This document shows, piece by piece, positions 7,761 to 52,073 of a DNA stretch of 64,000 bases. Made by a program: the position numbers and the translations under genes. Origin of the DNA: Deltaproteobacteria bacterium (GTDB taxonomy: Bacteria > BMS3Abin14). The stretch's first letter is position 1. The number at the start of each line of letters is the position of its first letter. The stretch is from assembly GCA_013151915.1 (NCBI GenBank), contig JAADHJ010000011.1, forward strand, positions 1 through 64,000, given 5' to 3'. The notes beneath the pieces are model-generated. The model made no database searches. It was not told where the DNA came from and worked only from the letters and a program-made list of their open reading frames with translations.

Positions 7761-7761
7761 A

Positions 7762-7966
7762 GTTCATCCGGCTGGCTAATGCGTACCTTAACCCGGTGTC
7801 CAACGTTCAATGTTGATAGGGTCGCAAAAAGTCCATTTATGGCTTTTTGCTCTACGGAAAGCGAAAAGTGTCATTTTCACTTTCCTTACAAATCAACAAC
7901 TTGTTTGGGCGCCCATCAGTGGGCGTAATGATGACTTTTTGCGAAGTCATCATTGTTCAACGGCGG
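7762..7966 (+). repeat. R4 block, copy a (interrupted by R1b)
   Basis: GTTCATCCGGCTGGCTAATG leads through GCGTACCTTAACCCGG to CAACGTTCAATGTT, breaks off at R1b, and resumes with TGTTCAACGGCGGGATTC. The uninterrupted version is at 26490-26549. Confidence 0.85.
7813..7953 (-). mobile_element. R1 element, copy b, inserted into R4
   Basis: About 140 bp, minus orientation. The ends carry a perfect 12-bp inverted pair, TCGCAAAAAGTC (7822-7833) and GACTTTTTGCGA (7933-7944). TGTT is found on both sides (7811-7814 and 7954-7957) but only once at the empty site (26536-26539), consistent with a short target duplication. The exact boundaries are uncertain by two or three bases. Confidence 0.85.
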
Positions 7967-7970
7967 GATT

Positions 7971-8212
7971 CAAGATCCAGAGTCCAGAGTAGAAAAGGGG
8001 ACGCGGCAATCCCGGGCGACTTGTCACGGCGAAGTTCGAAAAACGAAGACGGAAGCTGAAAAAGCCGTCGCGGCGCCCTCCGGGCGCTACGGGATCGCTT
8101 CACTCGGATACGGTTCGCGATGACCAGCGAAGTCATTGCGAGGAGCATCGAGGGAGACGAGAGTGACGCGGCAATCTCATGCGGAGTTGAAAAGGTAGAC
8201 GGAAGCAATCCC
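7971..8212 (+). repeat. R5 and R7 repeat blocks
   Basis: A short CCAGAGTCCAGAGTA tract (R5) is followed by GAAAAGGGGACGCGG and two degenerate R7 units containing CATTGCGAGGAGCATCGAGG and GACGCGGCAATCTCATG. 26590-26700 carries the same succession. No gene is seen. Confidence 0.7.
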
Positions 8213-8231
8213 TAAAGTCAAAAGCTGATTT

Positions 8232-8346
8232 ATCACAGTCACGCCGATGGCGTGACCTGGAGGTCACTTCACAGGGTTTAAAAAGAGGGTTGCACAGATT
8301 TTAAACTTCGCGAAACTTTGTTAACTTGTTTTAAATAAACCCTGTG
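8232..8346 (+). repeat. R2 palindromic element, copy b (degenerate)
   Basis: CACAGTCACGCC with a GGCGTGACC hairpin, CACAGGGTTTAAAA, an AT-rich centre and AAACCCTGTG reproduce the R2 plan. It abuts R3b. Confidence 0.65.
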
Positions 8347-8466
8347 CCACCCTGCCTGCCAGCCATAGCTTCAGCGACGGCTGGTGAAACTCTGTGCACC
8401 CTGTGTTAAGTTAGCTTTCCACAAAATCTGGTCATCCTTCAGGTACCCATTTCCGGGATGAACCAG
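8341..8466 (-). repeat. R3 block, copy b
   Basis: Near-identical reverse complement of 4603-4727, including the CCAGCC/GGCTGG hairpin and the ACCTGAAGGATGACCAGATT segment. It lies just downstream of the ArnT-like gene. Confidence 0.85.
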
Positions 8467-8479
8467 TTTTTATTCGTTT

Positions 8480-10016: not shown

Positions 10017-10061
10017 CCGTTGAGTAAAAAGCCATTGAAGGACTTTTTACGACCCTACCAA
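10017..10061 (+). repeat. R1 element, 3' fragment
   Basis: Only the last hairpin and terminus (GTAAAAAGCCATTG to CCCTACCAA) are present, directly before full copy c. The two could be a tandem pair or a nested insertion remnant. Confidence 0.75.
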
Positions 10062-10065
10062 GGTT

Positions 10066-10199
10066 GATGACTTTATAAGAGGTCATCACCGCGCCCTCTT
10101 TAGGGCGCTCAAATCGAAGATTTGTGAGGAAAGTGAAAATGACATTTTTCGCTTTCCGTTGAGTAAAAAGCCATGAATGGACTTTTTACGACCCTACCA
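10066..10199 (+). repeat. R1 element, copy c (full)
   Basis: GATGACTTTATAAGAGGTC through the complete hairpin chain to GACCCTACCAT. Its right end overlaps the last codons and the stop of the minus-strand AEC transporter gene. Confidence 0.85.
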
Positions 10200-11873: not shown

Positions 11874-11984
11874 GATGATGGACTCGCAAAAAGTCCATCA
11901 TCGCGCCCGGGGAGGAAAGTGAAAATGACACTTTTCGCTTTTCGTGGAGTAAAAAGCCACGAATGGACTTTTTACAACCCAATC
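11874..11984 (+). repeat. R1 element, copy d (111 bp, lacks central stems)
   Basis: GATGATGGACTCGC through GTCCATCATC, then straight to GGAAAGTGAAAATGACAC and the terminal hairpin, ending CAACCCAATCA. The central GGCGCC and AAATC stems are missing. The ribosome-binding site of the helicase gene begins four bases later. Confidence 0.8.
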
Positions 11985-14682: not shown

Positions 14683-14817
14683 TTGACAGGGTCGTAAAAA
14701 GTCCATCAATGACTTTTTACTCCACGGAAAGCGAAAGGTGTCATTTTCACTTTCCTCACAAATCTTCGATTTGCGTGCTCTGAAGGGGGCGCGATGATGA
14801 CTTCGCAAGAAGTCATC
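14683..14817 (-). repeat. R1 element, copy e (full)
   Basis: TTGACAGGGTCGTAAAAAGTC through to GACTTCGCAAGAAGTCATC, minus orientation, 21 bases before greA. Confidence 0.85.
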
Positions 14818-14838
14818 ATTTTTGGAGGGTAAAATCCC

Positions 14839-15473: not shown

Positions 15474-15893
<420 letters not shown>

Positions 15894-15921: not shown

Positions 15922-16055
15922 GATGACTTTGTAAAAAGTCATCGAGGCGCCCGCTTGGGGCGCTCAAATCGGAGATTTGTGAGGAAAGTGGAAATGACAT
16001 TTTTCGCTTTCCGTTGAGTAAAAAGCCGTGAATGGACTTTTTACGACCCTATCAA
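15922..16055 (+). repeat. R1 element, copy f (full), between glnB and glnA
   Basis: GATGACTTTGTAAAAAGTCATC through the GGCGCCC/GGGGCGC stem to GACCCTATCAA. It occupies most of the glnB-glnA spacer and would be part of a glnBA transcript as a chain of hairpins. Confidence 0.87.
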
Positions 16056-18388: not shown

Positions 18389-18545
18389 TTGATAGAGTCG
18401 CAAAAAGTCCGACCCGGGACTTTTTGCACAACGGAAAGCGAAAAGCGTCGTTTTCGTTTTCCTCACAAATCAATGACTTATGTAGCAAGTCGTTGATTTG
18501 GGCGCCCCACGCGGGGCGCGTTGATGACTTCCTATGAAGCCATCA
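18389..18545 (-). repeat. R1 element, copy g (full), between lspA and lgt
   Basis: TTGATAGAGTCGCAAAAAGTC through to GATGACTTCCTATGAAGC. Read on the minus strand, its first bases (TTGATGGC) contain the TGA stop of lspA at 18543-18545. Confidence 0.83.
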
Positions 18546-25762: not shown

Positions 25763-26504
25763 GAGAGTGGATCTGCTGCTCGTAGCCAGGGGCCTCGCGC
25801 CGAGCAGGGAGAAAGCTCAGGCGCTGATCCTCGCCGGCCGGGTCTACTCCGGCGACAGGAGAGTGGATAAAGCCGGGCACCGCCTGCCGGTGGACGTTTC
25901 GCTCCAGGTCCGGGAAGGGCTGCCCTACGTGGGGCGCGGAGGGCTGAAGCTTGAAGCCGCCCTGGACCGGTTCGGTGTCGACCCTGCGGGGAAACGGTGT
26001 CTTGATGTGGGGGCATCAACCGGAGGTTTTACGGATTGTCTTCTTCAGAGGGATGCGGCCCATGTTTTCGCGGTGGATGTCGGGTATGGCCAGCTGGCAT
26101 GGAAGCTGCGGTCCGACGTCCGGGTAACTGTCCTTGAAAGGACCAATTTTCGGACCATCTCCGACGATGTCCTGCCCCATGATCTTGAATTGGCGGTGGT
26201 GGATGTGTCCTTTATTTCACTGAGGCTCATACTTCCCCGCCTGCGGGTGTTTCTTCGAAACGGTGCGGACGCGGTTGTCCTGGTGAAGCCCCAGTTTGAA
26301 GCTGGAAGGAAAAATGTCGGGAAAGGCGGGATAGTCAGGGACCTCAGGGTTCGTCGGGAAGCCCTGGCCGGCATCCTTGCGGCGGCGGCGGAGGAGGGGT
26401 TCGGGATTCGGGGATCCATGGAGTGCCCTGTTCCCGGAGCGGACGGCAACGTGGAGTTCCTGGCGCATTTAACTAAGGTGTTATCGGATGGTTCATCCGG
26501 TTAA
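25749..26504 (+). CDS. tlyA: TlyA-family rRNA 2'-O-methyltransferase / putative hemolysin
   Basis: 251 aa. The N-terminal S4 RNA-binding domain (RVDLLLVARGLAPSREKAQ) is followed by an FtsJ-like Rossmann methyltransferase with SAM motif CLDVGASTGGFTDCLL and late motifs VVDVSFISLRLILP and VLVKPQFEAGR. Characterised TlyA methylates 16S and 23S rRNA ribose; hemolysin labels are historical. ATG 25749 overlaps the dxs end by 14 bases. xseB-ispA-dxs-tlyA is a recurrent neighbourhood. Confidence 0.92.
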   Translation: MPARERVDLLLVARGLAPSREKAQALILAGRVYSGDRRVDKAGHRLPVDVSLQVREGLPYVGRGGLKLEAALDRFGVDPAGKRCLDVGASTGGFTDCLLQRDAAHVFAVDVGYGQLAWKLRSDVRVTVLERTNFRTISDDVLPHDLELAVVDVSFISLRLILPRLRVFLRNGADAVVLVKPQFEAGRKNVGKGGIVRDLRVRREALAGILAAAAEEGFGIRGSMECPVPGADGNVEFLAHLTKVLSDGSSG

Positions 26505-26549
26505 CGCGTACCTTAACCCGGTGTCCAACGTTCAATGTTCAACGGCGGG
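26490..26549 (+). repeat. R4 block, copy b (uninterrupted empty site)
   Basis: GGTTCATCCGG, GCGTACCTTAACCCGG and CAACGTTCAATGTTC, then AACGGCGGGATTC, continuous at the point where the 7762-7966 copy is split by R1b. It overlaps the last codons of tlyA. Confidence 0.85.
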
Positions 26550-26552
26550 ATT

Positions 26553-26600
26553 CAGGGTCCAGGGTCCAGGGTCCAGAGTCCAGAGTCCAGGGTCCAGAGT
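26553..26600. repeat. R5 tandem repeat
   Basis: Six to seven direct GGTCCAG/AGTCCAG units in a row, the reverse-complement orientation of the CTCTGGA tracts elsewhere. Confidence 0.85.
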
Positions 26601-26604
26601 AGAA

Positions 26605-26700
26605 AAGGGGACGCGGGGAACAGAGAGCTGTCATTGCGAGGAGCATCGAGGGAGACGAGAGTAACGCGGCAATCCCGGGCGGAGCTGAAAAAGTCAAGAG
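26605..26700 (+). repeat. R7 block
   Basis: GAAAAGGGGACGCGG, then CATTGCGAGGAGCATCGAGG and AACGCGGCAATCCCG. It matches 8133-8212 in order and orientation. Confidence 0.75.
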
Positions 26701-26810: not shown

Positions 26811-27677
26811 ATGAACGAGGTCAAGCGAATAGGGATTATTGCCAAGACCACCAGCCCCCATGCCCGGGAGGTAATGGTGAAACTGGTTCCGTGGCTCATG
26901 GGCAGGAATGTGGAAATCACCGTGCAGGAGGAGTACGAGGGACTGAGCGGGACATTGGCGAAGGCCGTACCGAGAAACGAGGTCCCAACCGGGGTTGACA
27001 TCATGCTGGTTCTTGGGGGGGACGGCACCCTTCTGTCTGTAGCACGTCTCGTGGAGGGCACCGACATTCCCCTTTTGGGGATTAACCTCGGATCCATGGG
27101 ATTTCTTACGGAACTTGGATTGGAAGAGCTTTTCCCCGCGCTTGAGCGGGTCCTGACCGGGAAGTACGGGATTGAGGAAAGGATGAGATTGAAGGTTCAC
27201 CTTTACCGGGAGGGTGACGAGATCCGCGAGTTCAAGGTCTTTAACGACGTGGTTATAAACAAAGGCGCTCTCGCCCGCATCTTCGACCTGAAGGCCTTTG
27301 TGAATGGACACGAGGTGACAACCTACAAGGCCGATGGACTAATCGTCAGTACGCCCACGGGATCCACCGCCTACAGCCTGTCCGCCGGGGGGCCGATCGT
27401 TGAGCCGACCCTGGACGTTATTCTGATCTCTCCCATATGTTCCCATACCCTGACAAACAGGCCGCTTGTGGTGCCGGGTAGTTCCCTTGTGGAGCTACAC
27501 CTGACCGGGGATCCTGGAAAGGTCTATCTGACCCTGGATGGGCAGGAAGGAATGAGCCTGTCAGGTGGGGACAGGGTCCAGGTGAAAGCCTCGTCCGGCC
27601 GGGTCAAACTGATCAGGACCGGGTCGAAAACCTTCTACGATGTCCTCGGGGCCAAGCTTCACTGGGGAAGGCGGTAG
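26811..27677 (+). CDS. nadK: NAD kinase NadK
   Basis: 288-aa kinase making NADP from NAD. The diagnostic GGDGTLL lies near residue 70, followed by NLGSMGFLTE, and TPTGSTAYSLSAGGP marks the NAD-binding core. ATG 26811 follows TATAAGGAAATACC. It is close to the usual 290 residues. nadK-recN adjacency is common in bacteria; here the two are separated by the R6b repeat. Confidence 0.96.
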   Translation: MNEVKRIGIIAKTTSPHAREVMVKLVPWLMGRNVEITVQEEYEGLSGTLAKAVPRNEVPTGVDIMLVLGGDGTLLSVARLVEGTDIPLLGINLGSMGFLTELGLEELFPALERVLTGKYGIEERMRLKVHLYREGDEIREFKVFNDVVINKGALARIFDLKAFVNGHEVTTYKADGLIVSTPTGSTAYSLSAGGPIVEPTLDVILISPICSHTLTNRPLVVPGSSLVELHLTGDPGKVYLTLDGQEGMSLSGGDRVQVKASSGRVKLIRTGSKTFYDVLGAKLHWGRR

Positions 27678-27682
27678 GACCT

Positions 27683-27713
27683 GAGAGACTTTTTACGAGG
27701 TTGTCAAAGCTGG
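27683..27713 (+). repeat. R6 start-proximal repeat, copy b (before recN)
   Basis: GAGAGACTTTTTACGAGG followed by TTGTCAAAGCTGGA. Shares its sequence with the glnB and pyrH upstream regions and part of the R1 terminus (GACTTTTTACGA). Confidence 0.7.
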
Positions 27714-40460: not shown

Positions 40461-40535
40461 TAGGGGAAGGAAGCCATTCCCCACCGAAGGAAAAAGAATC
40501 GAAGAGACTTGTTGCGAGGTTGTCAAAATTGAGCA
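40461..40535 (+). repeat. R6 start-proximal repeat, copy c (before pyrH)
   Basis: GGAAGCCATTCCCC, then ATCGAAGAGACTTGTTGCGAGG and TTGTCAAAATTG, aligned with the glnB copy over about 70 bases. Its GAGG (40516-40519) and TTG (40529-40531) look like the actual ribosome-binding site and start codon of pyrH. Confidence 0.7.
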
Positions 40536-51420: not shown

Positions 51421-51437
51421 TTTATGGGTCGAATTTT

Positions 51438-51530
51438 GATGACTTTGCAAAAAGTCATCAAAGCGCCCGCTTAGGGGCGCTCAAATCGAAGATTTGTGAG
51501 GAAAGTGAAAATGACACTTTTCGCTTTTCT
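51438..51530 (+). repeat. R1 element, copy i (3'-truncated, 93 bp)
   Basis: GATGACTTTGCAAAAAGTCATC through AAATCGAAGATTTGTGAGG to CACTTTTCGC. The final GTAAAAAGCC hairpin and CCCTATCAA end are absent. It lies 33 bases before rimP. Confidence 0.83.
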
Positions 51531-51563
51531 TCGCTGTTTACGGTCTGATATCGAGGCACGGCC

Positions 51564-52028
51564 ATGGACACCCACGGCATAGTAGACTATATCACCCGGA
51601 TTGTGGAGCCTATTACCGGACGGCTTGGCCTTGAGTTGGTGGATGTGGCCTTCAGGAGCGAGGATGGACGGTGGGTCCTGAGGGTGACCATTGATCATGA
51701 AGATGGGGTGAAGGTGGCTCACTGCACGGCGGTAAGCAAGGAATTGGGCGTTCACCTTGAGGTGGAAGATCCGATTTCCGTTCGGTATCACCTTGAGGTC
51801 TCATCTCCGGGTCTTGACAGACCGCTGAAGAATGAGGGGGATTTTGAACGCTTTGCGGGGCGTCAGATCCTTATCAGAACCCATCGATCGGTTGCAGGAA
51901 GAAAGAAGATCCGAGGGATTCTGGAGGGCGTCGAAAACGGGATGGCGCAGGTGCGGATGGCCGATGGGACCCTGGTGGAAGTGCCCATGGAAGATATGTC
52001 CTCCGCAAGGCTTGATTTCAGCCTTTGA
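51564..52028 (+). CDS. rimP: Ribosome maturation factor RimP
   Basis: 154 aa, needed for 30S maturation. VDYITRIVEPITGRLGLELVD opens the family (core EPITGRLGLELVDV); YHLEVSSPGLDRPLK is the strongest signature and the C-terminal SH3-like domain ends VPMEDMSSARL. ATG 51564 has only a weak GAGGCACGG site. It heads rimP-nusA-ylxR-infB. The stop TGA (52026-52028) overlaps the first bases of R1j. Confidence 0.95.
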   Translation: MDTHGIVDYITRIVEPITGRLGLELVDVAFRSEDGRWVLRVTIDHEDGVKVAHCTAVSKELGVHLEVEDPISVRYHLEVSSPGLDRPLKNEGDFERFAGRQILIRTHRSVAGRKKIRGILEGVENGMAQVRMADGTLVEVPMEDMSSARLDFSL

Positions 52029-52073
52029 TGACTTCGTAAAAAGTCATAAATGGACTTTTTACGGCCCTATCAA
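52027..52073 (+). repeat. R1 element, copy j (47-bp minimal derivative)
   Basis: GATGACTTCGTAAAAAGTCAT joins directly to AAATGGACTTTTTACGGCC and CTATCAA: both R1 termini without the interior. Lies between rimP and nusA. Confidence 0.82.

Follow-up and report, generated by a model that had tools for sequence, protein, structure and literature searches.

A short non-coding repeat, R1, interrupts an R4 repeat and has the features of a MITE-like mobile element

In the window analysed here (the whole stretch of DNA, 64,000 nucleotides long, whose positions are used throughout), a hairpin-rich repeat, R1b, is nested within an R4 repeat at 7762-7970. Other R4 copies in this genome are uninterrupted, and the short repeat is therefore read as a small mobile element, non-coding, that has jumped into this one. 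The comparison of copies supports R1b as a recent insertion into a pre-existing R4 repeat. R1 as a family is very probably a non-autonomous, MITE-like element that is moved in trans and makes a 4-bp target duplication, with R1b as a recent copy in R4. Small mobile repeats are a known bacterial kind, for which alignments of filled and empty sites are the standard evidence (PMC2229807). The filled site and its empty counterpart comprise the following features:

7762-7813, + strand: left half of the split R4 (89% identity to the sequence from window 26490 on)
7810-7813, + strand: left copy of the target duplication, ATGT; the empty R4 reads CAATGTTCAACGG, with the same ATGT
7814-7952, + strand: R1b, the inserted element, TGATAGGG...GAAGTCATCA, its ends set by the comparison of 63 full copies and the sequence around them
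7953-7956, + strand: right copy of the target duplication, TTGT (one substitution), in the register given by the family-wide flanks
7957-8006, + strand: right half of the interrupted R4, from alignment to the empty copies
26490-26610, + strand: empty R4 copy, with two more at L060 (contig 41) and L061 (contig 59)

In the R4 copy at 26490-26549, CAACGTTCAATGTTCAACGG is continuous, while at 7762-7970 the repeat breaks after ...CAACGTTCAATGTT (7814) and picks up again with TTGTTCAACGGCGGGATTCA (7953 onward); the intervening 139 nt (7814-7952, TGATAGGG...GTCATCA) are R1b. The preliminary description had placed the continuous and the split copy at these positions, and the base-level coordinates agree with it. 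Between the filled site and the copy at 26490, the R4 halves agree on the left at 95% over 41 nt and on the right exactly across TGTTCAACGGCGGGATTCA, both far above chance. A search for R4 across the organism's own genome (2.27 Mb, 60 contigs) gave three empty copies (window 26490, contigs 41 and 59) against one filled, with no second filled R4 in that genome. When R1b and one copy of the flanking repeat were removed from 7762-8006 by script, the filled locus aligned with all three empty copies with an unbroken junction. The polarity of the event is thus that of an insertion. R4 is older than R1b because R1b is nested within it, and nested repeats of this kind give a relative order of age, R4 before R1b. 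R4 is itself a mosaic, in which GGTTCATCCGGTTAATGCGTACCTTA and GTCATTGCGAGGAGCATCGAGG lie near each other at many places without an intervening CAACGTTCAATG/GTCCAGAGTCC block (window 7762-8469, L062-L086). The landing site of R1b lies downstream of a cold-shock gene and its terminator.

The other R1 copies of the window are given below, together with what was seen in a sister species, G001, whose contig 45 is syntenic to the 64-kb window, with flanks that align at 80-88%:

174-327, - strand: R1a, absent from the sister species
10017-10197, - strand: R1 and, in tandem, a partial copy; absent from the sister species
11876-11984, - strand: R1, internally deleted, absent from the sister species
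14685-14818, + strand: R1; sister-species site without R1
15922-16053, - strand: R1; sister-species site without R1
18391-18545, + strand: R1; sister-species site without R1
51437-51532, - strand: R1, 5'-truncated; sister-species site without R1
52026-52072, - strand: mini-R1, 47 nt

All nine window R1 sites are without R1 in G001, although at some of them (e.g., 14685 and 18391) the base-level alignment is unclean, so that R1 is absent and the exact empty site is unreadable. R1 had no match in 100 kb of the syntenic contig. At the R1b locus, alignment at 83-87% covers the cold-shock gene, its terminator and the gene that follows, and in place of window 7761-8469 G001 has 108 bases, with neither R4 nor R1. 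In the reciprocal direction, the unique flanks of one G001 R1 locus matched nothing in the genome analysed here (G000). Could R1b instead be ancestral in R4 and have been precisely deleted from the other copies? Recombination between direct repeats at the ends of an element can recreate an empty site. This reading is nevertheless very improbable given that of the four R4 copies found only this one is filled, that R1 occupies about 250 unrelated sites, that nine of nine window sites are without it in the sister species, and that R1b is young, at 97-98.6% identity to its nearest relatives. An ancestral R4 with R1 inside, which would have turned the insertion into a deletion, was looked for in the sister species and not found; R1 is missing from that species at each locus of the window whose neighbouring genes align. 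The preliminary claims that R1 behaves as an insertion and that R1b is younger than its R4 copy accordingly stand, the latter on the nesting.

Beyond the window, R1 is dispersed through its own genome, with about 250 matches to its 5' end (reversed control, 0), and makes up roughly 1% of it. It is present in 10 of the 11 genomes searched from the same family and in one of 87 outside it, the latter a marginal match, and searches of plasmid, phage and viral collections gave no match. Its presence is lineage-specific, within an uncultured bacterial family, and the evidence for its mobility is direct, with the ends and the target placed exactly. By protein comparison, the closest named relatives are the MAGs SZUA-178 and bin676. 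Repeats reading GACTTTTTGCGAGGTTGTCAAA, which resemble the R1 5' end read outward, lie just upstream of genes at window 15502-15542, 27672-27712 and 40491-40531, one of them upstream of a glnB-like start.

With an HMM built from R1b, 63 full-length copies were retrieved from targeted stretches of the genome. They start with (T)GATAGGGTCGYAAAAAGTC and finish with GAAGTCATCA, and fall into a short type (134-nt core) and a long type (153-154-nt core) that differ in hairpin 3. At 135-155 nt, with a minimal form of 47 nt, R1 is gene-less and too small for a transposase gene. Its terminal inverted repeats are imperfect (5' TGATAGGGTCGYAAAAAGTC against 3' inward TGATGACTTCGYAAAAAGTC, 16/20 by direct reading). 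Folded as DNA, R1b forms a row of hairpins (z = -6.9):

7824-7850, + strand: hairpin 1, which takes in the inner stretch of the 5' end; from the fold and the comparison of all copies
7856-7885, + strand: hairpin 2; from the fold, across copies
7889-7907, + strand: hairpin 3, shortened by an internal deletion; from the fold, across copies
7909-7926, + strand: hairpin 4; from the fold, across copies
7929-7952, + strand: 3'-end hairpin TGATGACTTTTTGCGAAGTCATCA; read as its reverse complement it is similar to the 5' end (an imperfect terminal inverted repeat)

Base pairs are kept across copies beyond all 500 shuffles (1609 against at most 1603, and 801 against at most 799). Compensatory changes are few and, in the short set, not above all shuffles; maintenance of the hairpin structure across copies is suggestive only. 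Rfam models at gathering score gave no match to R1, the only hits in the window being two tRNAs.

R1b is a young copy of the long type that carries a 15-16 nt internal deletion. Its identity to four long copies (L009-L012), whose flanking repeats are exact or nearly so, is 98.6, 97.8, 97.1 and 97.1%, and R1b belongs to a young R1 subfamily. Of 13 long copies, 7 have exact 5-mer flanks, against 2 of 27 short ones (Fisher p = 0.002), and this concentration indicates that recent activity belongs to the long type. Many short-type copies have a flanking repeat that is degraded or absent.

How long is the target duplication? The statistics come from 29 stand-alone copies, with the element read as TGAT...ATCA. 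Within a copy, the left flank correlates with the right one at the four (possibly five) adjoining bases and nowhere else; exact 4-bp flanking repeats are present in 9 of the 29, against 1.1 expected, a count reached in none of 5,000 permutations. In the relatives, exact 4-bp repeats were found in 10 of 22 rows (1.0 expected), one G004 locus being counted twice. A duplication of 5 bp, ANNTT, fits the R1 flanks nearly as well. The fifth base, however, has no clear left-right correlation (p 0.05-0.13), and none at all in mini-R1, and the centre of the target palindrome implies an even length, so the 5-bp version was set aside. Four is also favoured because the initial T of TGAT is constant in mini-R1, whether or not the base before it is T, and because L122 reads CTTT/CTTT, then A on the right. 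A 4-bp duplication is therefore supported, with 5 bp as a possibility. A few copies suggest longer duplications, of 6 bp in L036 and of 7-8 bp at window 11876, where the internally deleted R1 (11876-11984) is flanked by CTTTCAT, a sequence present as a single copy in the sister species.

For R1b, the preliminary description had proposed a 4-bp duplication of TGTT. This motif is present on both sides, at 7811-7814 and 7954-7957, and the length agrees with the family statistics; the register and the perfect repeat do not hold. Since the ends of R1 are fixed by the flanks of the whole family, the duplication at R1b is ATGT/TTGT, one base to the left and identical at three of four positions. Taken alone, this single-copy match is weak.

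Flanks from the whole set have a palindromic consensus, TCA-ANNT-TGA, a mirror image of the TGA...TCA ends of R1 itself, in keeping with tandem R1 arrays that have ANNT spacers. Arrays with units split by one 4-5 nt spacer are found in L017, L018, L020, L022, L026, L028, L029, L035 and L042; that in L018 reads ATCTT-R1-ATCTT-R1-ATCTT, as though R1 inserts beside its own ends. A GTTCAAC-like motif is present in 13 of 40 R1 targets, against a background of 2.5%, and GTTCAAC-type simple repeats are common in the genome, including around several R1 copies. It is conceivable that the filled site arose by recombination or template switching between such repeats, with no transposition at all. As 27 of the 40 copies lie outside such repeats while the duplications, the constant ends and the TCA-ANNT-TGA target persist, this origin is hardly credible.

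The smallest form, mini-R1 (47 nt; TGATAGGGTCGYAAAAAGTCCATTNATGRCTTTTTGCGAAGTCATCA), consists of the R1 5' end and, directly attached, the 3' hairpin, that is, the two ends alone. About 27 copies are present (G000 contigs 6, 11, 16, 22, 23, 58 and others), and 3 of 16 have exact 4-bp flanking repeats, with 0.47 expected. Since mini-R1 has flanking repeats of its own, the ends of R1 alone seem sufficient for movement. Mini-R1 is a candidate for the smallest mobile unit, and makes the mobilising transposase testable.

What moves R1? A short duplication of constant length, ends in inverted repeat and the lack of a gene favour a MITE of the DDE type. In such a scheme a trans-acting DDE-type transposase would move R1, cutting its target with a 4-bp stagger, preferably at palindromes like TCA-ANNT-TGA; the stagger would yield the 4-bp duplication. 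R1b landed in the GTTCAATGTTCAAC stretch of an existing R4. Several observations count against the MITE reading: the hairpins are seemingly maintained, which is not required of a simple DDE-moved MITE, none of the transposase genes examined is bounded by R1 ends, a few copies point to longer duplications, and many of the short type have a degraded repeat or none. Four Pfam families were searched in the organism's own genome. PF01609 (DDE_Tnp_1) gave no match, and PF01797 (Y1_Tnp), PF00665 (rve) and PF00872 (Transposase_mut) genes are present, none with R1-like ends. The rve genes were rejected as mobilisers on this ground, as was an IS256-like gene at the end of contig 23, although the contig stops there. 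The partner may belong to other families, may have been lost, or may lie within the gaps of the 60-contig assembly.

Alternatively, R1 might be REP-like and moved in single-stranded form by a Y1/HUH transposase (RAYT), its flanking repeats then being a target preference instead of a duplication. The strongly folding hairpin string, with its pairs kept beyond any shuffle, would suit this, and the genome has two complete, long Y1_Tnp genes, of which one shows a DnaA-C-like match that is weak and under the cut-off. Both, however, are flanked by inverted repeats of their own (GGGGACGTAGTTAAGTTG; TGGGGTCAAAGCTCAGA), with R1 ends not near, and one of these repeats bounds a separate small element in L131; RAYT was rejected as the mobiliser of R1, as its flanking repeats differ from R1. 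Moreover, flanks of the same copy match better than flanks of different copies, a pattern that Y1 transposition does not give, and movement by RAYT is quite unlikely. The RAYT-like Y1 transposase gene in L054 (1382-2490) is bounded by GGGGACGTAGTTAAGTTGTTAAGTTG inverted repeats, which also bound a short gene-less element directly after an R1 5' end (L131, about 1555-1665). A further, rather unlikely proposal is that R1 and mini-R1, the latter just its two ends folded together, are moved by an undescribed transposase that recognises the fused-end hairpin and inserts at TCA-ANNT-TGA palindromes. If true, it would explain the maintenance of the hairpins, the ANNT-spaced tandem arrays and the missing classical partner.

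Among known systems, a MITE-like element is the closest description of R1, which is short and transposase-free, with terminal inverted repeats, a mainly constant duplication length and filled and empty sites. The Correia/NEMIS, RUP and ERIC/RU-1 elements are likewise non-coding and under 200 bp, with imperfect terminal inverted repeats, target duplications, stable stem-loops and filled and empty sites, and the size variants of Correia differ, as in R1, by an internal block (107/155 bp; PMC2229807, PMC10969869). Their sequences differ from that of R1, and they form one long stem where R1 forms a row of separate hairpins; R1 has a 4-bp ANNT duplication and TG...CA ends, whereas most families reviewed have TA-type ends and targets, and RUP has a parent, IS630-Spn1, while none was found for R1 among the four transposase families searched (PMC2229807, PMC10969869). 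YPAL/RU-2 of Yersinia (about 168 bp, a size comparable to R1) shares dyad-symmetric targets, target duplications, mobility shown by filled and empty sites and the absence of TA ends, but its duplications range from 3 to 26 bp where those of R1 are mainly 4 bp, and its lineage is unrelated (PMC2229807). REP/BIME sequences with RAYT resemble R1 in their high copy number, palindromic character and tandem arrays, and RAYT-like genes occur in the R1 genome; R1 differs in its target duplications and inverted-repeat ends, and the local RAYT-like genes are flanked by other repeats (PMC2817692, PMC3733652). R1, with no Y1 transposase flanked by the same repeat and with a target duplication, falls outside the REP/RAYT class. 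Judged from the searches of this analysis, made without ISfinder, R1 is apparently a new, undescribed family of MITE-like elements.
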